DNA of 52,949 nt from a virus. The notes under the pieces are model-generated. The model did no database searches, was not told the DNA's origin, and saw only the letters and a program-made list of their open reading frames with translations. The stretch is from positions 1 to 52,949 of the IMG/VR virus record IMGVR_UViG_3300031841_001392; one strand, written 5' to 3'. This document shows, in pieces, positions 2,351 through 42,138 of the stretch (position 1 is its first letter; the number at the start of each line of letters is the position of its first letter). The position numbers and the translations under genes were made by a program.

Positions 2351-3117
2351 TAGGCTACCTCTTCCCAGTTGGGTGTTTGAGACGTTGATACAGTTGACCA
2401 ACTAGGTGTTTGACTTGTTGAAATAGTTGCCCAGCTAGGCGTTTGATTGTCATCAACAAGCCCCCATACATTTGATGTGCCAGTGGCCCCAGTTCCTTCA
2501 ACACCCGTAACAGATACATTTGCATCAGCTGTAACAGTGACGTTGCTGACCGCTCCAATGCCTTCAACGCCTGTTGGAACAATCGTTTGGCCCAAGCCGA
2601 TAGTGACTGTACCAATTTGACCAGTGCCGGATACACCTGTTGGAGAAACGACTGCGGTACCAATAACCGTAACTGTTCCGACTGCACCCGTTGCTTCAAC
2701 ACCTGTAACGGAGACATTCGCATCGCCAGTGATCGTAACCGTGCCAACAGCGCCCGTACCCGCAACGCCAGTGACCGAGGCGTTTGCATCAGCACTGATC
2801 GTAACCGTACCAACCGCTCCAGTACCAGAAACACCAGTAACACTAACATTCGCATCAGCGGATACAGTAACCGTTCCCGCAGATCCAGTGCCTTCAACAC
2901 CCGTGACAGAGACGGTAACACCCGTTCCTTCGATGATCGTGACGGAGCCGATTGACCCTGTTGCAGAAACGCCTGTGACAGTGACATTTGCGTCTGCGCT
3001 GACTGTGACAGTCGTGACCGCACCAGTGCCTTCAACACCAGTAACGACGACAGGGTTAGCCTCGCCCCACGGGCCATCACCCCAAGCGCCTCTGCCCCAC
3101 CCATTAAGATCTGCCAC
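2350..3117 (-). CDS. Virion protein of 22-residue beta repeats
   Basis: A 255-residue protein with a Trp/Gly-rich N-terminus (MADLNGWGRGAWGDGPWGE) followed by about eight and a half copies of a 22-residue unit of the form TGVxGTGAVGTVTVSADANVSV. It ends with three 10-residue TPSWxTxSTSQ units. The regular Thr/Val/Gly pattern suggests a beta-solenoid or repetitive beta structure, as in fibre shafts or surface decorations. It lies just upstream of the fibre gene in the late leftward operon and overlaps the next start by TAATG. Probable structural or fibre-associated protein; no named family assigned. The other-frame reading of the same DNA also stays open because of the 66-nt repeat and is not a gene. 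Confidence 0.75.
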   Translation of the reverse strand: MADLNGWGRGAWGDGPWGEANPVVVTGVEGTGAVTTVTVSADANVTVTGVSATGSIGSVTIIEGTGVTVSVTGVEGTGSAGTVTVSADANVSVTGVSGTGAVGTVTISADANASVTGVAGTGAVGTVTITGDANVSVTGVEATGAVGTVTVIGTAVVSPTGVSGTGQIGTVTIGLGQTIVPTGVEGIGAVSNVTVTADANVSVTGVEGTGATGTSNVWGLVDDNQTPSWATISTSQTPSWSTVSTSQTPNWEEVA

Positions 3118-3120
3118 ACG

Positions 3121-3375
3121 CTACTTCCTGTATCCAGCCGTCTTCTTGGCTATTTTTTTGGGCTGCTTGGAGTGTTGCTTGCCTTTTTTTGTGTCTGCCC
3201 TCTTCTTTCTGGAAGTGGCAGCGTACTCCTTGTCCGATAAAGCCTGTCTAGCCTTCTTCGGGAGATACCTTTCACCTGTCGCCTTCTTTCCTTGTGTAGA
3301 CGGTTTACCTGACTTGGTGCCCCAGTCTTGCTTCGTCCACTTCTTAAGGCTCTTTTGAGGCTTCTTCAATGGCAT
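3121..3375 (-). CDS. Small basic protein, phage-conserved type (84 aa)
   Basis: Lys-rich protein with the segments LKKWTKQDWGTKSGKPS, GERYLPKKARQALSDKEYAA and KKGKQHSKQPKKIAKKTAGYR. From memory this pattern belongs to a family of unknown function seen in marine phages and giant viruses (I think DUF5872, unverified). Its stop is 3 nt before the next start, and its ATG shares a base with the preceding stop (overlap at 3375). The position inside the head-tail operon suggests a virion or DNA-packaging accessory role; function unknown. Confidence 0.7.
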   Translation of the reverse strand: MPLKKPQKSLKKWTKQDWGTKSGKPSTQGKKATGERYLPKKARQALSDKEYAATSRKKRADTKKGKQHSKQPKKIAKKTAGYRK

Positions 3376-32080: not shown

Positions 32081-32300
32081 GGAAAGTGTTGAAGAGTTCC
32101 TTGCCCGTGGTGGCAAGATACAGGAAGTGCCTTTTGGCGAAATTACCATCAAAGATCCAAAGCTCGGCAACCATGGCCCAAGCAAAGTAACTGCTCAGGC
32201 GCACATAAGAGCTAGTCAAAAGCGTGAGCAGAAGAAAGACAAAGCCAAATCCAAGGTTAAGGTGTTTGGGTTCAACAGGCCCAGCCCTAAAAAAGATTAG
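32073..32300 (+). CDS. Hypothetical basic protein (75 aa), GTG start
   Basis: GTG at 32073 after AGGAGATGTCTG. The protein contains SVEEFLARGGKIQEVPFGE, a motif I recall in small phage proteins, then a long Lys-rich region (KREQKKDKAKSKVKVFGFNR). Its 3' end overlaps that of the converging giant gene by 14 nt. Function unknown; basic tail suggests nucleic-acid binding. Confidence 0.62.
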   Translation: MSKESVEEFLARGGKIQEVPFGEITIKDPKLGNHGPSKVTAQAHIRASQKREQKKDKAKSKVKVFGFNRPSPKKD

Positions 32301-35300
32301 ATATCCTGTTAGCTATAGTCTCTGTTGCCGTGGGCAGTTCTATATATCTTTCTAGCTGCGGGACGATGCTCAGATAGTACTGCTCTTGAGTATTGATAAA
32401 TCTCATCTGCTCCTGCTTCTGATCTGCCGTCAGGTCAGACTTCAACAACGTTCTACGCTGCTTCCTGAGATCTGCAAGCGCACTGGCTGTAGGCTGTAGC
32501 TGCTTCCTCAGACCTATGAATTGCTTTTTATTTACCAAGAAACTCTCAAGCTCATCAAACCTACCTTGGTCTTGCAGAAGCTTGGCTGCGTTCTCGGTAC
32601 GCTTAATGTAGTCCCACATCTCGTAGAAGTCTTCTTTGTTACCGCCACCAAACTCACTGGCAAAGAATCTTCGTATGATCGGATACTGAGAGACATCGGT
32701 TCCAGCAAGCACCGCTCTGTTGTCTCCTTGAAGAAAGCTGTCTCTCAATCCGTAATCAGCCATGCCCAAGATATAAGATCCAATCGTGCCGCCATAACCT
32801 TTCATCAAATGATCTAGTTTGATCGGGCTGATGCCCAAGACCTTCGCCATATTCTTGGCAACCTCCGTTGTAGAGGCAAGCTCTTGAAGCTCTGGTGGCA
32901 ATGATGAATCTATAAATACGGGAGTTACAGGCCTGCCTGTATAGAGGTCGTAGTTCATGTACGCCTCCATAATTGGAGTTACTGCCTGTGGAGGCTGAAC
33001 ACCAAGCGTTCCAAACACTGCTCGGCCTATTGATTGCTGCGCCTCTCTGGCGGTGGTGCCTTCGTTGTAAGAGTCAATGATCCGCTCAGGCAGCGTCTTG
33101 AAAATAAGGCCAACCTCAAACGGGATTGGAATTCTAACCGGCACACCAGACGGTGTTGGTATAAGCCAGTAGTTGTCTTTTATTTCTTCGGTCTGCTCTT
33201 TGTACTGCTCATCATCACTAACCATTGTGTAGTAAATGGCTGTGCTCGCAGCTATCAAAGATCCTCTGGCGATAAAGCTCATGGCTGCCTGAGAGCGTGA
33301 CAAGTCTCTGTTGGCAGAGCTTTTGCCTGTACCGGCCCGTGCAAGGACATCTAAGCCTTGTATCCTAGCGTTCAAGAAAGGAATCGTTGCTGTAACCAAA
33401 CGCATAACAGGGCTGCTGCCACGGCGACCAAAGTTCAACACTTCCATCGCTTGATAGCTGGCTTCTGCCTCATTACCTGTACGGGCTAATACATCGTTGT
33501 AAACAGCGTTTCTAGTAGCAGCGTCTGAGCGAGTTGTCGCTTGACCAAGAAGATCCCAACCGCCGATAAAGAATTTACTAAGAAGCCCTCTTTGATCTAC
33601 ATTCTTGTTTCTTTTTTGAAGTATCTTTCCTGCGTACTCGCCAATGTTTTCTGGGTCATTCTTGTAGTCATAACCGCCTACAACACCTGTCCTCTCAAGC
33701 TTCTCCATTCCTTCAGCGTAACCAGCAATGGTATCGGCTATTGGCACAAAGCTAGACCCAGAAGTGACGAATGCAGACAGCGAGTCACGCAGCATGTTTG
33801 CAATAACAAACCCCGGCTCCCGTGTAACCATCTCTCGCAAAAAACGGGATGGGAAACCCAGTATCTTAGAAACTTCACGCTCTACACCACCAGCAGGCTC
33901 AACAGTCAACGACTCATATATTAACGGGTCATCAACAATGAACTTACGTCTATTGCCGTTGACTTTGAAGGTGACAACAGCCTCGCCTGTAGTGTTCTGT
34001 CCCGGCTTGACCTCTCTTGCTAGGCCAATGTTTCTCATATCCCTGACAATGCGTTGCTGGGCAACATTCTTCATGCCCATGCTAATCGCTGCGTTCAGGT
34101 TCATGGATATTGCTTCCAAGAGCGGCACGTTAACTTCTTTTTCGCTGCCTTTGATTGCCTTTAGGTCTGCGCTTGCAGTCAGGCCGCCAAAGATGTTCGG
34201 CGCGTTTGGAGTGTCGGCACCTTCTACTTGACGATAGAAAGGCACATAGTCTGACTGGTCTTGCCACATCTCTGCGGTCTCTGCATCAACAACACCCGTA
34301 TCTTTGAGAAACTGAACGGTGTAGCCGTTGTAGTCTTGCCAAGCGTCATACCAGTCCTTGATTATTGAATTGCCATTCTCATCCAAGAAAGACTCTGCGG
34401 TTGCAATGTTAGCTGCATGATCCGCCGGGGTTCCCGGTACAGCTATGCCTTTTGCTCGCAAACGCTCGGATCTCTTAGCTATTGAGTAGGCCTGAGCCAT
34501 TTGCTCAAGAGACCCATGCTCCTTGGTGTACAGCATGGACATCAAATCTATGAGGCCTCTAATTTTTTTGGTTTCGCCCCGACTGTTGGTGTGGTTGAAA
34601 TCCGCTATCTTGGTCATACCGCCTGTGTACACAGGGACACCGTACTGAAGAGCGGCTGCGGTTATCGCATTAGATCTGTCAGCCATCAGAGCGGCAGCCA
34701 AAGACGATGAGTCAGCAAGCAAGTTGCCAAGCATGCCTTGGTAGTTTTCTAGCTGGGCATACCTATTGACCGCTGCCTGTTTAGCCTTGGTCAACCACTT
34801 GGCTATCGGCCCTTGATCTAAGACGTTGAGATAGGTCTGTCCGGGGGTATTCGTGGGTAGGTCTGCAACAACATTGTCTATTGCAGCCTGAGCAGCGGGG
34901 TTTATCTCTGGCGCGTTAGACCTAGAGAATGCAGGCATTTCACTATCTGAAAGCTCTTGGCCTTTGTCTGGGTCGGCTGCTACAGCTTGTGCATATCGGT
35001 CTGCGCCGGGATTAAACCGTGGCACCGTGCCTGCGGGACGATTCTCTGCTATTTGTAGATTGTCAGCTACAACACGGTCAACTTCGCTTTGACCTATGAC
35101 CTCTCTGCGCTTGTATTTATCAAGCAGGTTGAATGGAAGCCCTACGTCTTCAGTCTGTACCTCTCTGGCAGCATCGCCTCTTCCTCTGCGCCTAGAGGCT
35201 GAGTCGGGTCTCGGTCTGGGTACGCCGCCATCAGATAGTTTTCTCTCGTAAGTGGCTGCTTGGTCGCCTTCAGGTATCCCTCCGTCAGATCGTTCCCAGT

Positions 35301-38300
35301 CGGGCGGCTTGATTTGTCCTGCATGTTCATAGATGGCCTCTCTAGCCTGATCCAGCGTTATTTGCTTCTTATTATACTGCTTCCATATATTGTCTACAAC
35401 TTCCACATTACTGTTTTGAGACTTGTACTCTGGTCGGAAAAGGCCTCTGACCGCTTCCCATGTAATGGACTGCATCTCTCTAGGTAAAACACCGCGCTCC
35501 TTAGCAGCACGGCGGTAGGCCTCCTCGTAGATTGAGTACACGCCGTTTAGGCCCGTAATACTTGACGATGAACCCTTCGTTCCAAAATTGTGAGAAACCT
35601 CAAATGCACTGCCGCCAAGAGGCTTAAGAAGTCCTGCCGCAACAGCATGGGTGTCTATGGTTACATAGCCAAGATCCGAGTCTGGATCGAATATGTTGTT
35701 GTAAAAGTTTCTGACTTTGTTTGCCGAACCAAGCGATGCAGATATGGTGTCAATGTCAGTTTCTCTTAGGGCTTTAATTGACTTGGCTATCTCAGTTAGA
35801 GACCCCCAAGCCACCTTAGAGTTGCTACCGTCAGAATTCTTTGCGTAGTCGAGAAGTCTGCCGTCAGGGGATACAATCCTGTAGCTAGGGTCGTTATAGG
35901 TCTGGTCAAAAGTCCTGATCCACATAGCGCCTAGCTGCTCACCTTGCCCCGGCTCATTGAATTTATCCAGTACTTGATCAAGGGAGCTAGAGCCTATCAG
36001 ATTAAGCATCTCACGATTTCTGGCTTGACCCTTGGCGCTTATGCCATCATGAAAGAATATTTCTTCGGCGCGAGCTTTCATCTCAGGAGTAAAAGGCTGC
36101 CCTGCGTGATCAAAGAACGTATCAATAGTTCTCTCTGCGAGCGAGGCGTTTTGATACCAGTCCTTTTGCGGAGACAGGTTGGCTGCAACAGCAGCAGCTT
36201 GTTGCATGGTTAAGTTGTGACGTTCTGCAAATCTACGGACTAAAGCGTTTGCGCCTTTGTACCAAACCTTCGAGTTATTACGGGTATCAGCCGGAACCCT
36301 GTCATATATATTGAGCAGATTATTCTTAACAAGCTCAACAAATGCCTCTGCTTTTTGTTTATCTGATCTTAGGTCTTTTGATTTCTGCAGTATCGGATAG
36401 AGGTTAGCGTCTTTGATAAGCTCCATGTTCTTGCCAAAGACCTTGCCGTCAGCAAGAAAGGTTTCGTAGTCATTGACTAGTAAGTCTTCAAGAGGGTCTT
36501 CTTTTGATCTGGCGGCTGTGGGGTATCGGGTACTTACATTACCCTCTATACCGCCCTGTTCAGCGGCTCGCCTAGAGAACATGGGTGATTCTTCAAAGCC
36601 GTCCCTGCCTTCACGGGATGTCCACTCAGGCATCAAGCCCATCTTCTGGTCAGCAAAGACGGTGTCTAGTACACCAGCTCCTTGGTTTTGCTCGCCATAT
36701 GGGCCGTAGTTCAGCCAGCTATTTTGCCCCCTAGTCTCAGACGTAAGTGCCTGTAACGCTGGGCCAGTGAATAGTTTGGCGTGTGCCTGCCATGCATTTT
36801 CCTCACCGCGAGCGCGGAATCCAGCACCTTCTATGCCGTGACCAAATGCGTCATGTACAGCCCTGAATAAGTCGTTGTTGGTGACTATTTGCTCTCGACC
36901 TAGCTGATCTTTCCATCGCAACCCTGTGTCACGCAACATAACCCTGTTTGGATCGCCTATATCGTTATAGAAGTCATCTAAGGTGCCGTAACCGTCATAA
37001 GTGCCATAGACGGACATGCGCTTGTTGCTGCGCAAGTCCCGCATTGCGTTGTACGGGTTGCCGTCATAAGGGTCTGTGTCTGAATCATAGAAATCAAACT
37101 CAAAACCTTCGTCAATCAAGGCATCGTATTGGTTGCGTGTTTGCCTAGCCAGATCCTCATAAGCATCCCTAACATTAGGATCAGTGGGATCATCAGCCAT
37201 CTCCTCATAAGCCTGCGCTATCCGAGTGGCTCTCTCTGGGTCTACCCTTACATACTCCGATTGTCTGGCAAGCGGGATGCCATAGGTCTCTGCATATCGC
37301 TCTGCTGCGGCATTGATTGCTGGGTCTGGCCCCGTGGCCCCTGCCCTGATCGGCGCTCCTTCGAGCGGCGTTCTGCTTGCACCCTGATCTTCTGTCGGCG
37401 CAACGCTTCGTGCCTGATCGCGTCCTCTTCCGTCTCTTCCGCGTTGGGGTCGTACATTATCACCTCCAAGGTTTGATATGTTTCTGGCAACGATGCCTTT
37501 AGTGCCTGACGCATCAATAGGTTGTGCTAACTGCTCAGGATCAATCATTTCGTAAAGAAACTTTGATTGCCCCGACTTGATATCAAACTTGCTGCCTTCA
37601 GGTACAAGATGTTGGTCTCTTGAGTCGGCAAACTCTACTTCGCCAACCTCAATAGGCTCTCCTACAGTGGCGTAACCAACAAGTTTTGCAGGCCCAGAAC
37701 CTGTCTCCACTATGCCAATACGCTTACCCACATAGGGGCGCAGCGAGTCTTTGTCGCGTGTCTCGTATTTTTTCTGACCGCTGACAATTAACTCAGCATA
37801 GTTAGTATCTCCATCAGTTCTGACGTTGATACCCATCTCAGCTTCTGTTGGCGCTCTGCGAGAAAACAGCGTTTCAAACTGCTCGCCACTTGGCAGAACA
37901 TTTTTTGTTGCGTTCTTGGCTAATACTAACGGGCCAACCTGTATTACTTCTTCAGCAAAGGTTACTGGCTCGCCGGTCTTTCTGTCGTAGAAGTATGAGT
38001 GTCTTCTTGGATCAAAACCAACCTGAACCCAGTCTGGAGAGTTAATGAATTCCTCTGCAAGTGATGCTGTTTGCTCCGGGTCTCTGTTTACAAAGTCTCC
38101 CATGATTTGGGCAAACGGAAACTTGTTTTTTCCCTCCATAACGGAACGAGCGTCTTCTTGAAGGTTTTTAGGGTCTCTTCCCGCTCTTTCTCTAAGCATG
38201 GTGAAATCAGCATTTTTGATTGATGCTGTAGCCATGTGAGATATCGATTTGCCTTTCTGGTCGTGAATCGTTGGCACCCAAGTGCCAAAGTTTTTGTATG

Positions 38301-41300
38301 CGTTGATATCTAATCTAAGACCAACGCGAGACCCATCAGGAACCTCTGCGTTTATTTTGTCTTTCTGGCTTTGAACAGCTAAAGCCTCAAACATCTCTTC
38401 TGTAGTGGCAGGCTCTGGAACAAAGTCATAAGGCTCAATTGTTCCCAGAACAACAGAATCATATTGCTGTCTGGTAAATTCCCCTGACTGCAATTTTGAG
38501 TAAGCATCGGCAACTTCAGGCCTAACCTCTGTTTGGGGAGCGCCTACAGCCCTTCTGCTAAAATCGGGAACAGACTGACCCTGCATCGCTGCGTCACGTT
38601 CTGCCTCTTCGCCGGTGGTGATGACTGTGCCGGGGGGTGGTTTGGCTAGGGTTCTAGATGCGGCCTTCTCTGTTTGAGCAAAGGTTCTTATCTCACCTCT
38701 CTGTCTACCACCTATGGTGCCTGAGCCTATGCCGCCGATAACCTCGCTGAAGGTATTGAACTGCTCGCCTCTAAGGGCTGAGACCATGTTCCTAAAGAAC
38801 CTAGCTATGCGCTCTACAAGGGATCTTGGCTTGCCCTGTAAAAGTTTACTGTCTTCTCTTGCTCGTCTGACTAGCTCGGCAACAGATTCTTCTACCTGAT
38901 CTACTGGGCTTAAGTCATTGTAGTTGTTTTGCGCCCACTTGAGGAATGTCTGTGGGTTGCCATCCCTGTCTTTGGTGGGGTGTATCTTTTTGCTTGCCGC
39001 CCTTGAGAGAAGATTCCATTCTTTGTTGGTGAACAGATCCAGCTTACGCATGGCATGGATCATTTCGTGATCTAGAAGAGCCAGCAATTCTGCCTCTACC
39101 TGAGCATCTGTCAGGGTTTTACCCTGCATAGCTTTGTCTATTGACAAGAAAATAGTATTTATTCTCGGGTCGTAGTAAGCCTCTGCTCTGTCCTCTGGGT
39201 CTGCCTGATCAGACCGAACAAGCTGGTACTTGGCCTCTCTAGCTAAAGCGGCCTCACCACCAATCACATCTGCATCTATATCGCCGCCCTGTCTAGGCCT
39301 TATGCCGTAAACAAGATTGCCCAGAGGATCTTTGACCGCTGTCCTGAGCGCATAATCTAGGCTTAGGCCAACGTCCTTCAAACCAAACCCTGTCATCACC
39401 TTCTTGATTGCAGAGCGTAATCGGTCAACGTCTACCGATGGCGCAGGCAGAGCGAGTGTTTCTTGTTGCTGCTCCACCACAGTCTCAACCGGAGCAACCG
39501 GCTTCACACCCTGCTTGGCAATGTCCTTACGCAACTCCTGCATAGACTCAGCGCCACTCTTGGTCGCTATATTTATACCTGTAGCGTCAGCTAGGGCTAA
39601 CTCGCCTGCATTCGGATTTTCTTGCAGGGTTTGGACAGCAGCACGGAACTGCGCCCCTGTGTACTTGGGCAGCTTGAATGTGGGCAGCTTGGTAGGCTTG
39701 TCAAATCGTGGCAGTGATCTAAGACGTTGATATAGCAGCCTAGCCTCAGCAACAGACAGATCGTTTATCGACTTGATAGTCTTCTTGCCAAGAATCCTAG
39801 ACGCAAGGTACTTGACCTCTGGAGACCCCACCTTGGAGGTTATGTTCTTTGCTTCCAACAGCGACTGCATCTCTTGGAAGTTGCCATCGACGTTACGCAT
39901 AACACCTTTTTCGACGGCAGCCTTGCCAGTGGCGTTGTTTAGTTGGTTGGCATAGACCCTAGCATCAGCCTCGGTCTTGAACTTGACCAGCTTAGGCGGC
40001 TTCTTCTTGGGGTTTGCCTTGATCTCAGCGTCTTTCTCTAGGACGGTCAGAGGCCTGCCCTGAAGCACCTCGCCTGCGCTGCTCCTGATAATAGGGTTGC
40101 CAGCTTTACTAAGATCAGCGTTGTACGTTTCTGTCTCTGGAAGACCATTTACCCGTGTATCGGTAAGGTTATATAGCTGGTCTTCTTTCAGTACGCTTCT
40201 GACTTCTTCAATGGTGAAGTTGTTTGTTACTGGCAGACCCTTACGCAGACGCTTCGCGTTGATGCGCTGAGAGGCAGTCATCTTGGACGGCCCTACACGG
40301 TTTTCTACCAGTGTTTTGACATCAGCAACCTCATCAAAACCACGGTCTTGTGTGGTCTCTGCTGCGCTATCTACGGCAACAGATGTGTAGGTGTTGGAGT
40401 CTGGGTGATTTACAGCGAAGTTGTAGGCTTGAAGTGTAGAAGCTTGATCTGTGTCATACGCTTCTGGAGATGTGGAGATAACAGCGTCACCGGCAGAAAA
40501 GACGTTGTCGTTGATGATTTCGTCATTAAGAAACCCAGCAAGAGCGAAGGCATCTTCTGAGTTGTTGAGTGGTATGCCGAACTGCTGACCAGAACTGTCT
40601 TGTACAGTAAAGACGGGAACGCCAGTCTCATCTAGCTGCGTGGTGTCTCCTAAAGCACCGCCAAACTCTTGTGGCAGGTTAACGGTAAATGAGTTGTCTG
40701 CTGACGGGAAACTATCACCCATTGTCTGGCGTATCTGTTGGGCATAGGCAAGCATCGGCTGTTTCGGGTATCGCCTTTGAATGCCTGCGGTAGGCTCTGC
40801 GACAGTGGTGATCTGCAAACCTGTCTGCTGAGGCACACCATTTACAGAGGTAATCACCTCGCCGCCACCGGGAACCTCAACAAAGGTTGTGACCTGCTCT
40901 GTAGGCTTACCCTTGTTTCTTATTCTGGTCTTTTCTTCTGCTTGAAAGGTCTGTCCTGATGCATCAGATATGTTAACTATTCTTGCGGGAGTCTTTAACT
41001 TGGTTGTGAGCGCCCTGCCTGTAGGTGGAGCTATCTGAGCGGGATCTACCTCTGCTCCAGCAGCCTGCCTACGGGCCTCAGCGGCAGCCTTTACGTCTAG
41101 ATTAGACTGAGCGTCTATACGAGCTTGTTCTGCAAGGTCTTTGGGTAGGTTTGCCTGTCTTTGATTCTGGGCATCTTCTAGGTCTTCTCTTTTCTTTCTC
41201 TCTGCTTCTTCTGAGGACTTGAAGGCATCTTTGTTGCGCCTTCCAGCTACAGCGTTCAAGACTAAGTCAGCGCCTGCGCCGATAGCACCGCCTACGGTGA

Positions 41301-42138
41301 AGTCATCCATCAGGTTGCCACCACCAATCTCCAGCGCCTCGTTGTATACGCCCTTTTCAACAGCGTCTTGCAACAGACTTGCGGTTACTTCCTGAACGCC
41401 CTCAACCGTGCCTGACATCAGGGCTGACCTAAGACGTTGACTGATGCCAGAAGGTAGCTGATCACCCGCTTCTAGGCCTCTAAGCCTACGCAAAAGCCTT
41501 ACAGGCGTAGCAAGCTCTGACAAGCCCACCATAGTGCCGCCGACAATGGCAGCGTCTTCTTGCCCCTCAGAGACATCAAGGCCTGCGTCACGGGCAGCTT
41601 GTATTCTTTGTGCTTGGTCACCAGCACCTGTGCCTGCCGCCAGTGTGCCAGCGGCTCCTAGCTCGGCAGCCTGAACTGCTCTGCTTGCTTGTATGCCCTT
41701 GCCAGCTAGACCAGCAAGCCGCACCGCTGCCGTGGGAGTAAAGAATGATGCAAACGAGCCAACGCCCTCGCCAAACTTGGTAAGCCATTGGTCTCTATAG
41801 GCGGCATCGGCTCCCATAGACTCTTCTATTGCAGCACGGCCTTCTCTTGCAGCGCGAACCAAGTCGTTCTCTTCGCCGCTATCTATTAAGTCCTCAAGGC
41901 CTATTGCGTTGGTGCCTGCATCCGCAAGCTCTGCAAGACCTTCGCCAGCAGACAAGAACGCATTGGCAAAGCCTCGGCCTACACCCTTAGCAGTTTCTAG
42001 CGCCTGACCGGCTGCGGTTCTTTCTCTTTCGTAATAAGCCTGAAAAAGCTCCTCAGCATCTTGAGGCGTTGGAGGGGAGTCGCCAGTTACACTAATAGTT
42101 TCGCCGGTAACAGTGTCTGTCAGGGTGTAATCTGGCAT
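32287..42138 (-). CDS. Giant polyvalent virion protein (3283 aa), LPD38 C-terminus
   Basis: Probably ejected with the DNA. It is a chain of modules. (1) 1-1190: Gly/Ala-rich and coiled-coil regions and a zincin-like region with LLDHEMIHAMRK, the HExxH motif at 1024-1028. (2) About 1191-1424: a large polyvalent-protein domain containing VGFDPRRHSYFYDRKTGEPV. (3) About 1425-1853: an ASCH-like domain (NYAELIVSGQKKYETR, from about 1437) and a domain with HDAFGHGIEGAGFRARGEEN (about 1760). (4) About 1854-2400: a DUF7178-like domain (NLTMQQAAAVAANLSPQKDW; VTIDTHAVAAGLLKP). (5) About 2401-3283: a helical C-terminus of LPD38 type with FLNARIQGLDVLAR. FSRR or FSRS marks each boundary, at about 1191, 1424, 1853 and 2400. 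Such proteins deliver effectors or anti-defence enzymes early in infection. Domain names are from memory; the HExxH and FSRR motifs are directly visible. Confidence 0.85.
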   Translation of the reverse strand: MPDYTLTDTVTGETISVTGDSPPTPQDAEELFQAYYERERTAAGQALETAKGVGRGFANAFLSAGEGLAELADAGTNAIGLEDLIDSGEENDLVRAAREGRAAIEESMGADAAYRDQWLTKFGEGVGSFASFFTPTAAVRLAGLAGKGIQASRAVQAAELGAAGTLAAGTGAGDQAQRIQAARDAGLDVSEGQEDAAIVGGTMVGLSELATPVRLLRRLRGLEAGDQLPSGISQRLRSALMSGTVEGVQEVTASLLQDAVEKGVYNEALEIGGGNLMDDFTVGGAIGAGADLVLNAVAGRRNKDAFKSSEEAERKKREDLEDAQNQRQANLPKDLAEQARIDAQSNLDVKAAAEARRQAAGAEVDPAQIAPPTGRALTTKLKTPARIVNISDASGQTFQAEEKTRIRNKGKPTEQVTTFVEVPGGGEVITSVNGVPQQTGLQITTVAEPTAGIQRRYPKQPMLAYAQQIRQTMGDSFPSADNSFTVNLPQEFGGALGDTTQLDETGVPVFTVQDSSGQQFGIPLNNSEDAFALAGFLNDEIINDNVFSAGDAVISTSPEAYDTDQASTLQAYNFAVNHPDSNTYTSVAVDSAAETTQDRGFDEVADVKTLVENRVGPSKMTASQRINAKRLRKGLPVTNNFTIEEVRSVLKEDQLYNLTDTRVNGLPETETYNADLSKAGNPIIRSSAGEVLQGRPLTVLEKDAEIKANPKKKPPKLVKFKTEADARVYANQLNNATGKAAVEKGVMRNVDGNFQEMQSLLEAKNITSKVGSPEVKYLASRILGKKTIKSINDLSVAEARLLYQRLRSLPRFDKPTKLPTFKLPKYTGAQFRAAVQTLQENPNAGELALADATGINIATKSGAESMQELRKDIAKQGVKPVAPVETVVEQQQETLALPAPSVDVDRLRSAIKKVMTGFGLKDVGLSLDYALRTAVKDPLGNLVYGIRPRQGGDIDADVIGGEAALAREAKYQLVRSDQADPEDRAEAYYDPRINTIFLSIDKAMQGKTLTDAQVEAELLALLDHEMIHAMRKLDLFTNKEWNLLSRAASKKIHPTKDRDGNPQTFLKWAQNNYNDLSPVDQVEESVAELVRRAREDSKLLQGKPRSLVERIARFFRNMVSALRGEQFNTFSEVIGGIGSGTIGGRQRGEIRTFAQTEKAASRTLAKPPPGTVITTGEEAERDAAMQGQSVPDFSRRAVGAPQTEVRPEVADAYSKLQSGEFTRQQYDSVVLGTIEPYDFVPEPATTEEMFEALAVQSQKDKINAEVPDGSRVGLRLDINAYKNFGTWVPTIHDQKGKSISHMATASIKNADFTMLRERAGRDPKNLQEDARSVMEGKNKFPFAQIMGDFVNRDPEQTASLAEEFINSPDWVQVGFDPRRHSYFYDRKTGEPVTFAEEVIQVGPLVLAKNATKNVLPSGEQFETLFSRRAPTEAEMGINVRTDGDTNYAELIVSGQKKYETRDKDSLRPYVGKRIGIVETGSGPAKLVGYATVGEPIEVGEVEFADSRDQHLVPEGSKFDIKSGQSKFLYEMIDPEQLAQPIDASGTKGIVARNISNLGGDNVRPQRGRDGRGRDQARSVAPTEDQGASRTPLEGAPIRAGATGPDPAINAAAERYAETYGIPLARQSEYVRVDPERATRIAQAYEEMADDPTDPNVRDAYEDLARQTRNQYDALIDEGFEFDFYDSDTDPYDGNPYNAMRDLRSNKRMSVYGTYDGYGTLDDFYNDIGDPNRVMLRDTGLRWKDQLGREQIVTNNDLFRAVHDAFGHGIEGAGFRARGEENAWQAHAKLFTGPALQALTSETRGQNSWLNYGPYGEQNQGAGVLDTVFADQKMGLMPEWTSREGRDGFEESPMFSRRAAEQGGIEGNVSTRYPTAARSKEDPLEDLLVNDYETFLADGKVFGKNMELIKDANLYPILQKSKDLRSDKQKAEAFVELVKNNLLNIYDRVPADTRNNSKVWYKGANALVRRFAERHNLTMQQAAAVAANLSPQKDWYQNASLAERTIDTFFDHAGQPFTPEMKARAEEIFFHDGISAKGQARNREMLNLIGSSSLDQVLDKFNEPGQGEQLGAMWIRTFDQTYNDPSYRIVSPDGRLLDYAKNSDGSNSKVAWGSLTEIAKSIKALRETDIDTISASLGSANKVRNFYNNIFDPDSDLGYVTIDTHAVAAGLLKPLGGSAFEVSHNFGTKGSSSSITGLNGVYSIYEEAYRRAAKERGVLPREMQSITWEAVRGLFRPEYKSQNSNVEVVDNIWKQYNKKQITLDQAREAIYEHAGQIKPPDWERSDGGIPEGDQAATYERKLSDGGVPRPRPDSASRRRGRGDAAREVQTEDVGLPFNLLDKYKRREVIGQSEVDRVVADNLQIAENRPAGTVPRFNPGADRYAQAVAADPDKGQELSDSEMPAFSRSNAPEINPAAQAAIDNVVADLPTNTPGQTYLNVLDQGPIAKWLTKAKQAAVNRYAQLENYQGMLGNLLADSSSLAAALMADRSNAITAAALQYGVPVYTGGMTKIADFNHTNSRGETKKIRGLIDLMSMLYTKEHGSLEQMAQAYSIAKRSERLRAKGIAVPGTPADHAANIATAESFLDENGNSIIKDWYDAWQDYNGYTVQFLKDTGVVDAETAEMWQDQSDYVPFYRQVEGADTPNAPNIFGGLTASADLKAIKGSEKEVNVPLLEAISMNLNAAISMGMKNVAQQRIVRDMRNIGLAREVKPGQNTTGEAVVTFKVNGNRRKFIVDDPLIYESLTVEPAGGVEREVSKILGFPSRFLREMVTREPGFVIANMLRDSLSAFVTSGSSFVPIADTIAGYAEGMEKLERTGVVGGYDYKNDPENIGEYAGKILQKRNKNVDQRGLLSKFFIGGWDLLGQATTRSDAATRNAVYNDVLARTGNEAEASYQAMEVLNFGRRGSSPVMRLVTATIPFLNARIQGLDVLARAGTGKSSANRDLSRSQAAMSFIARGSLIAASTAIYYTMVSDDEQYKEQTEEIKDNYWLIPTPSGVPVRIPIPFEVGLIFKTLPERIIDSYNEGTTAREAQQSIGRAVFGTLGVQPPQAVTPIMEAYMNYDLYTGRPVTPVFIDSSLPPELQELASTTEVAKNMAKVLGISPIKLDHLMKGYGGTIGSYILGMADYGLRDSFLQGDNRAVLAGTDVSQYPIIRRFFASEFGGGNKEDFYEMWDYIKRTENAAKLLQDQGRFDELESFLVNKKQFIGLRKQLQPTASALADLRKQRRTLLKSDLTADQKQEQMRFINTQEQYYLSIVPQLERYIELPTATETIANRISNLF

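Follow-up and report, generated by a model that had tools for sequence, protein, structure and literature searches.

A recurrent FSR motif at cassette borders in LPD38-type polyvalent phage proteins

Polyvalent proteins are described in the main text of Iyer et al. 2017 (PMC5512222) as giant multidomain chains that carry a zincin-like metallopeptidase and are predicted to be injected and to process themselves. Here we analyze P0001, an LPD38-type polyvalent protein of 3283 residues encoded in a 52,949-nucleotide stretch of viral DNA (IMG/VR record IMGVR_UViG_3300031841_001392, positions 1 to 52,949; hereafter the window), and a short motif, FSR, that recurs at its domain borders. P0001 resembles the proteins described in that main text in being a multidomain giant, in its putative HExxH/HExxxH zincin and its LPD38 part, and in the injection and autoprocessing predictions; the border motif is a new feature of this known kind of protein. 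In the main text of PMC5512222, figures, supplements and letters inside longer words excluded, a search at word starts gave no FSR, YSR, YSL, 'linker' or 'boundar'. In the open literature no description of an FSR border motif was found; FSRR combined with 'motif' returned a single, unrelated paper, and IRYSLK returned nothing.

In viral polyproteins a cognate protease, such as 3C of picornaviruses, cleaves the chain at a site that recurs. The proteins studied here share with such polyproteins a repeated short border site, a protease motif in the chain, and sites that are often alike within one protein (a dialect). The differences are that cleavage is here predicted from sequence, that a link between dialect and zincin is not established, and that the cargo probably reaches the infected cell by ejection and is not synthesized inside it. 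A second likeness is to DarA and DdrB of phage P1, which are processed virion antirestriction proteins according to passages of PMC12810830 and PMC5512222. Virion antirestriction proteins can thus be processed, but DarA is reportedly cut near its N-terminus, by the head protease (passages of PMC12810830). Polymorphic toxins, as portrayed in parts of PMC3482391, undergo autoprocessing and similarly exchange effector cassettes on a fixed delivery part; there the exchangeable domains are C-terminal, whereas here cassettes follow each other in mid-chain before a C-terminal phage block. For phage JC1, parts of PMC9144972 report that the DarB-like gp69 was detected in virions.

A sequence-only reading of the window had proposed a 3283-residue polyvalent protein at 32287..42138, which was borne out; the strand, left unstated there, is minus, and all P0001 features below lie on it. 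The four motifs quoted in that reading are real and lie within four residues of the positions it gave. FSR occurs in P0001 only at residues 1193 (VPDFSRRA; FSRR at residues 1193-1196, 38551..38562), 1425 (TLFSRRA; FSRR at 1425-1428, 37855..37866), 1854 (SPMFSRRA; FSRR at 1854-1857, 36568..36579) and 2404 (MPAFSRSN; FSRS at 2404-2407, 34918..34929), numbered here as sites 1 to 4. A DNA pattern matches sites 2 and 3 as well. The composition of the protein predicts 0.45 FSR and 0.03 FSRR against the four FSR seen, and at least four FSR arose in 2 of 2000 shuffles of its sequence.

Comparison with close relatives showed that the motif coincides with points of cassette exchange. When viral contigs were searched with the C-terminal end portion of P0001, 30 loci matched. 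In the longer relatives the N-terminal, zincin and LPD38 parts are constant and the intervening content varies, switching at FSR. For instance, the stretch GEQFETL followed by [FY]SRR opens into different cassettes in P0001, L016 and L251, and the DUF7178 cassette is preceded by FSRR or YSRR after differing upstream parts. The coincidence was counted in 20 proteins, 19 hand-picked from 33 plus L021 (L027 holds no site and stands outside the count). [FY]SR lay within 12 amino acids of 55 of 233 homology breakpoints, compared with a mean of 7.1 and a maximum of 21 in 2000 circular shifts; the proteins are related and their breakpoints therefore not independent. The top tripeptide near breakpoints was FSR, with 24 of its 49 occurrences in the 8.4% of residues concerned.

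The motif was then counted across the family. Profile searches with the LPD38 block gave at least 80 loci from each of two scans, viral and bacterial; together with the loci found earlier they yielded 233 open reading frames (ORFs), reduced to 163 non-redundant ones, 159 of which have at least 200 amino acids upstream of LPD38. Counts were limited to this upstream part, which keeps out an internal NFSRRG of the LPD38 block. That internal element, which resembles the linker motif, lies at about +490 in L029, L087, L281 and others, and its P0001 equivalent is NFGRRG. Ahead of LPD38 the 159 proteins hold 199 [FY]SR compared with 64.2 expected (3.1-fold), and 26 proteins have at least three sites when 1.6 are expected. 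The last site lies within 90 amino acids of the LPD38 block in 52 of the 105 site-bearing proteins. Eight of ten permuted tripeptide orders gave ratios of 0.7-1.3; RFS (1.9) and RYS (2.5) were raised, perhaps because Arg is common just before the aromatic residue (12% at -1). In 734 other ORFs [FY]SR was slightly low (79 vs 95.7 expected).

The sites also tend to lie in disorder-prone sequence near domain edges. For 174 of the 199 sites, the flanks were more disorder-prone than those of permuted tripeptides (p=4.5e-13). Pfam domain edges were examined in nine of 12 scanned proteins, those with domains upstream of LPD38; in the other three, L171, L314 and L275, LPD38 is the sole Pfam domain. 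Of their 27 sites, 16 lay no more than 60 amino acids from the LPD38 block or the edge of a domain (random placement predicts 6.5; p=0.0002), and one lay inside a Pfam domain, domains making up 10% of the length upstream of LPD38. The neighbors of sites in prophage proteins include ART-PolyVal, MuF_C, LPD3, PBECR1 and LPD1 domains; one site lies within the 63-residue gap between LPD3 and ART-PolyVal in L247, another nine residues past LPD1 in L230. At the LPD38 border (37 anchored rows of 45) the F/Y, S and R columns carry 2.4, 2.6 and 2.3 bits, compared with 0.4-1.6 in the eight preceding columns, although columns -24, -21, -20 and -2 are as high or nearly so and FSR is not the only peak. Proteins with longer cargo have more sites (Spearman 0.60, p=0.003); this was measured in 22 proteins that have an assigned zincin motif and score high for LPD38, among them L087, which is truncated at its 5' end. 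With these counts, the sequence check on enrichment at domain borders in homologues that the sequence-only reading had suggested has been run, and the idea survived on breakpoints, the LPD38 set and Pfam edges alike. The FSR border motif is genuine, widespread in LPD38 proteins, and present in part of the family.

Conservation of the motif acts at the level of protein. Among 203 sites the Ser codon was TCN in 133 and AGY in 70, and the Arg codon CGN in 140 and AGR in 63; this mixing of codon families points to selection on the peptide and not on the DNA. The four P0001 sites are likewise written in different codons, and no DNA word is shared, so that a DNA recombination scar, put forward in the sequence-only reading as an alternative, found no support and was rejected. 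Two further candidates were set aside. A twin-arginine translocation (Tat) signal, suggested by the letters SRR, and a dibasic site for a host protease both appear unlikely because the sites are internal and a second Arg is present at 21% of the 203.

Within one protein the sites tend to share their flanking sequence. The mean similarity of residues -5 to -1 within proteins was 0.007, compared with -0.578 on permutation (standard deviation 0.114, maximum -0.182 in 2000 permutations), and of the 55 proteins that have at least two sites, 33 showed a closer likeness within than between proteins. L171 has DLPTFSR at three of six sites, with two more sites two letters off; L314 has EKFSR at all four and L291 IAYSR at two of three. 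The four L314 sites are not fresh copies, since their Ser and Arg codons differ. Several L171 sites are nearly identical in DNA, and copying may have occurred there.

A second class of site, [FY]SL[RK], occurs 42 times in the 159 LPD38 proteins (8.8 expected). Four permuted controls gave 0.3-0.8, and a further one, L[FY]S[RK], reached 4.8 because it contains LFSR. This class largely stands in for FSR in some proteins, such as L301 with six sites and L306 with five. Five such sites were also present in L375, which came not from the LPD38 searches but from a DNA pattern scan of viral contigs (3 stretches). Proteins mostly use one class: in 36 proteins with at least three sites the mean majority share was 0.944, compared with 0.805 on permutation (maximum 0.870 in 2000). 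Among 60 rows listed, [FM]SQ stood near the LPD38 block in 12 of 12 Aeromonas rows; overall it was only 1.5-fold enriched.

P0001 joins several unrelated domains in one chain: LPD38, DUF7178, PHROG_3170, PHROG_3842, a zincin motif and an ASCH match below cut-off. Its N-terminal and middle blocks (residues 1-872, 39523..42138) hold no FSR. They are followed by the zincin-like block (residues 873-1190, 38569..39522; alignment A2, 19 sequences), in which HEMIH at residues 1024-1028 (39055..39069) is a putative zinc site. Site 1 lies between this block and cassette 1 (residues 1197-1424, 37867..38550), which matches PHROG_586 weakly. After site 2 comes the ASCH-like cassette 2 (residues 1429-1550, 37489..37854), whose Pfam match at 1446-1516 scores 17.2 bits, under the cut-off of 21.2. 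Cassette 3 (residues 1617-1853, 36580..37290) is PHROG_3170-like, with the match at 1753-1820. Site 3 leads into cassette 4 (residues 1858-2240, 35419..36567), with DUF7178 at 1929-2027, above the Pfam cut-off, and PHROG_3842 at 2108-2233. Site 4 stands directly ahead of the conserved C-terminal block (residues 2410-3283, 32290..34911), which includes Pfam LPD38 at 2976-3131 with 118.4 bits (cut-off 27).

From the zincin block to LPD38, FSR is thus present at four of five borders. The fifth, between the ASCH-like and PHROG_3170-like cassettes (1550-1616; residues 1551-1616 at 37291..37488), is FSR-free and reads VARNISNL in P0001, where the relative L090 has AFSRNISSL. FSR is also absent from the N-terminal/middle (about 380) and middle/zincin (about 872) borders, both of which are the analyst's own cuts. 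The claim that FSRR marks every module boundary was therefore too strong. As for the proposed placement in linkers, the predicted local distance difference test score (pLDDT) is below 50 at all four sites in two AlphaFold2 models. This agrees with the proposal but backs it weakly, because much of both models also lies below 50 (157 of 368 and 652 of 1001 residues). Across L042, L043 and 200 phage records, the PHROG_3170-like cassette turned up in far shorter proteins too: open frames of 446 amino acids in a mycobacteriophage and 191 in a Streptomyces phage, both without [FY]SR.

The gene adjoining P0001 matches endolysin and tail-injection transglycosylase profiles, and portal, terminase and head genes lie in the same window. 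These genes and the transglycosylase-like neighbor indicate that P0001 is encoded in the virion region of a tailed phage. By analogy with the polyvalent proteins in the main text of Iyer et al. 2017 (PMC5512222), P0001 is probably ejected into the bacterial host.

FSR would act as a protein-level recognition motif at cassette borders, most likely one at which the chain is processed by its own zincin, a reading to which we give about an even chance. Cleavage at the FSR sites is the leading prediction because the zincin motif lies in the same chain. A fixed N-terminal and zincin part and a fixed C-terminal LPD38 part would frame exchangeable cassettes, and the putative metallopeptidase would cut at FSR to yield the LPD38 part and separate effectors, either during virion maturation or after ejection. 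The candidate scissile bond is before the aromatic residue or after the Arg, and each fits both the FSR and the SLR ([FY]SL[RK]) classes. A hydrophobic P1' residue is often taken by zincins. An N-terminal Phe or Tyr is destabilizing in proteobacteria; if the bond before the aromatic residue were cut, the effectors would begin with Phe or Tyr and would be short-lived. More tentatively, the sites might form a private processing code, in which one [FY]S(R or LR) dialect per chain is read by an in-chain or associated factor and frames plug-in effectors that are released on delivery, the dialects keeping the polyproteins of different phages apart.

The zincin motif itself is well conserved. All 19 aligned zincin-block sequences keep HExxH and, downstream of it, EE without change, and every one of the 56 N-complete proteins that have at least two sites carries HExxH or HExxxH. 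If HExxH is counted alone, 15 of 51 proteins without it hold two or more FSR; when both classes of site are counted, 15 proteins with at least two sites lack HExxH, and HExxxH is present in 14 of them, the exception being L251, which is truncated at the 5' end. A Pfam scan of P0001 gave no peptidase match, and fold searches gave no hits at E<=0.001 with models that were themselves weak (mean pLDDT 56.2 and 45.8). A zincin subtype with HExxHALK or ALR accounted for 11 of 20 SLR-class assignments and also for 13 with FSR, proteins with several motifs being counted repeatedly.

Several observations weigh against processing by the zincin, or narrow its reach. The zincin motif is also present in 71 of the 75 other N-complete proteins (127 of 131 overall), and its link to multiple sites is not significant (p=0.135); because the motif is nearly universal in the set, it does not single out the zincin as the reader. 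Dialect tracks the LPD38 backbone about as well as it tracks the zincin, with a partial correlation between dialect and zincin of 0.176 over all pairs of 38 proteins and -0.015 among distant pairs, and no dialect is seen in 22 of the 55 multi-site proteins. [FY]SR is missing from 54 of the 159 LPD38 proteins, 44 of which have neither [FY]SR nor [FY]SL[RK]. L092 and L028 hold cassettes yet have one FSR each, with FARR or MSK at other borders. Among the 13 LPD38 loci from phage records (L033-L036, L045-L052, L054), two [FY]SR ahead of LPD38 were seen in L033 alone. Finally, 52 large ORFs that do not belong to the LPD38 set showed no enrichment of [FY]SR (34 vs 32.3 expected); some of them, such as L151, end at a contig edge ahead of any LPD38. 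RYS and [IV]R[FY]S were raised in these 52 ORFs, and they may hold a related motif.

Other explanations share part of this evidence. In the main rival, FSR would be bound and not cut, as a docking motif for a common partner such as the LPD38 block, a non-cutting zincin, the portal or a chaperone, which would arrange the cassettes for packaging or thread them during ejection. Border position, protein-level conservation and dialects suit binding equally well, and among the sets compared the enrichment goes with LPD38 proteins; however, docking alone leaves unexplained why the sites lie between cassettes and why the zincin motif is kept in all 19 aligned sequences, and we regard it as possible, on the unlikely side. 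We are more doubtful that the FSR linkers are simply tolerated splice points for cassette exchange with no partner. Cassettes are indeed swapped at the motif, but the mixed Ser and Arg codon families and the 2.3-2.6 bits of the F/Y, S and R columns at the LPD38 border speak against such a joint, though columns -24, -21, -20 and -2 are similarly high; nor would dialects be expected of a joint that has no partner.

Cutting by a different protease, namely a phage head protease at capsid maturation or a host enzyme, appears improbable. DarA is reportedly cut by Pro, the head protease of P1 (passages of PMC12810830), and the window protein at 7909-8814 matches head and protease profiles. Its match, however, covers the later part only, the protein is probably the major head protein, and no separate head protease was recognized among the 20 window proteins, part of the genes, scanned with PHROGs. 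Dialect differences between phages would argue against a single host enzyme. Separate effectors could also arise from translation that begins internally, at the motif or ahead of it, and an ATG immediately precedes 25 of the 203 sites; but a Shine-Dalgarno-like word lies upstream of one of these 25, compared with 12 of the other 178, which makes this disfavored explanation very improbable. That the sites are chance tripeptides of a long protein is hardly credible. Some 5-mer, as FSRRA here, does occur in triplicate in 21 of 2000 shuffles of P0001, but chance is contradicted by the breakpoint coincidence and by the family-wide enrichment, with permuted orders mostly near 1 apart from the raised RFS and RYS.

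[FY]SR was also counted in further proteins. The Pseudomonas phages F116 and vB_PaeM_USP_25 each have an ORF that holds three [FY]SR (0.5 and 1.0 expected). ART-PolyVal matched 12 plasmid records; of the four examined, L338 and L340 have a giant ORF with three [FY]SR and L337 and L339 one with a single site. A search of plasmids with cassette 1 gave no match. Family searches found ART-PolyVal in five and PBECR1 in three of 321 genomes. L334 has four FSR, and L326, L327, L330, L333 and L336 have none in ORFs of at least 700 amino acids. In L328 and L331 an 827-amino-acid ART-PolyVal frame, open from stop to stop, shows FSR at residue 5 and resembles a cassette turned into a free gene. A DNA pattern applied to 274 genomes was uninformative, its control columns being likewise rich in hits. 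The LPD38 phage proteins L169, L170 and L210 lie on contigs titled as Chloroflexi and Euryarchaeota metagenome-assembled genomes, perhaps viral contigs binned alongside. The phage records OQ594354.1, OL906435.1 and PP438419.1, whose cyanobacterial hosts differ, agree in length (65,014) and in their match values and may be one phage.

With candidate sites defined, the standing 2017 prediction of zincin self-processing becomes directly testable, for instance by a peptide assay. The border motif and its dialects give exact candidate sites in many unstudied proteins and offer a practical way of splitting giant phage proteins for annotation. For the phages that encode them, the motif suggests a natural plug-in delivery system.

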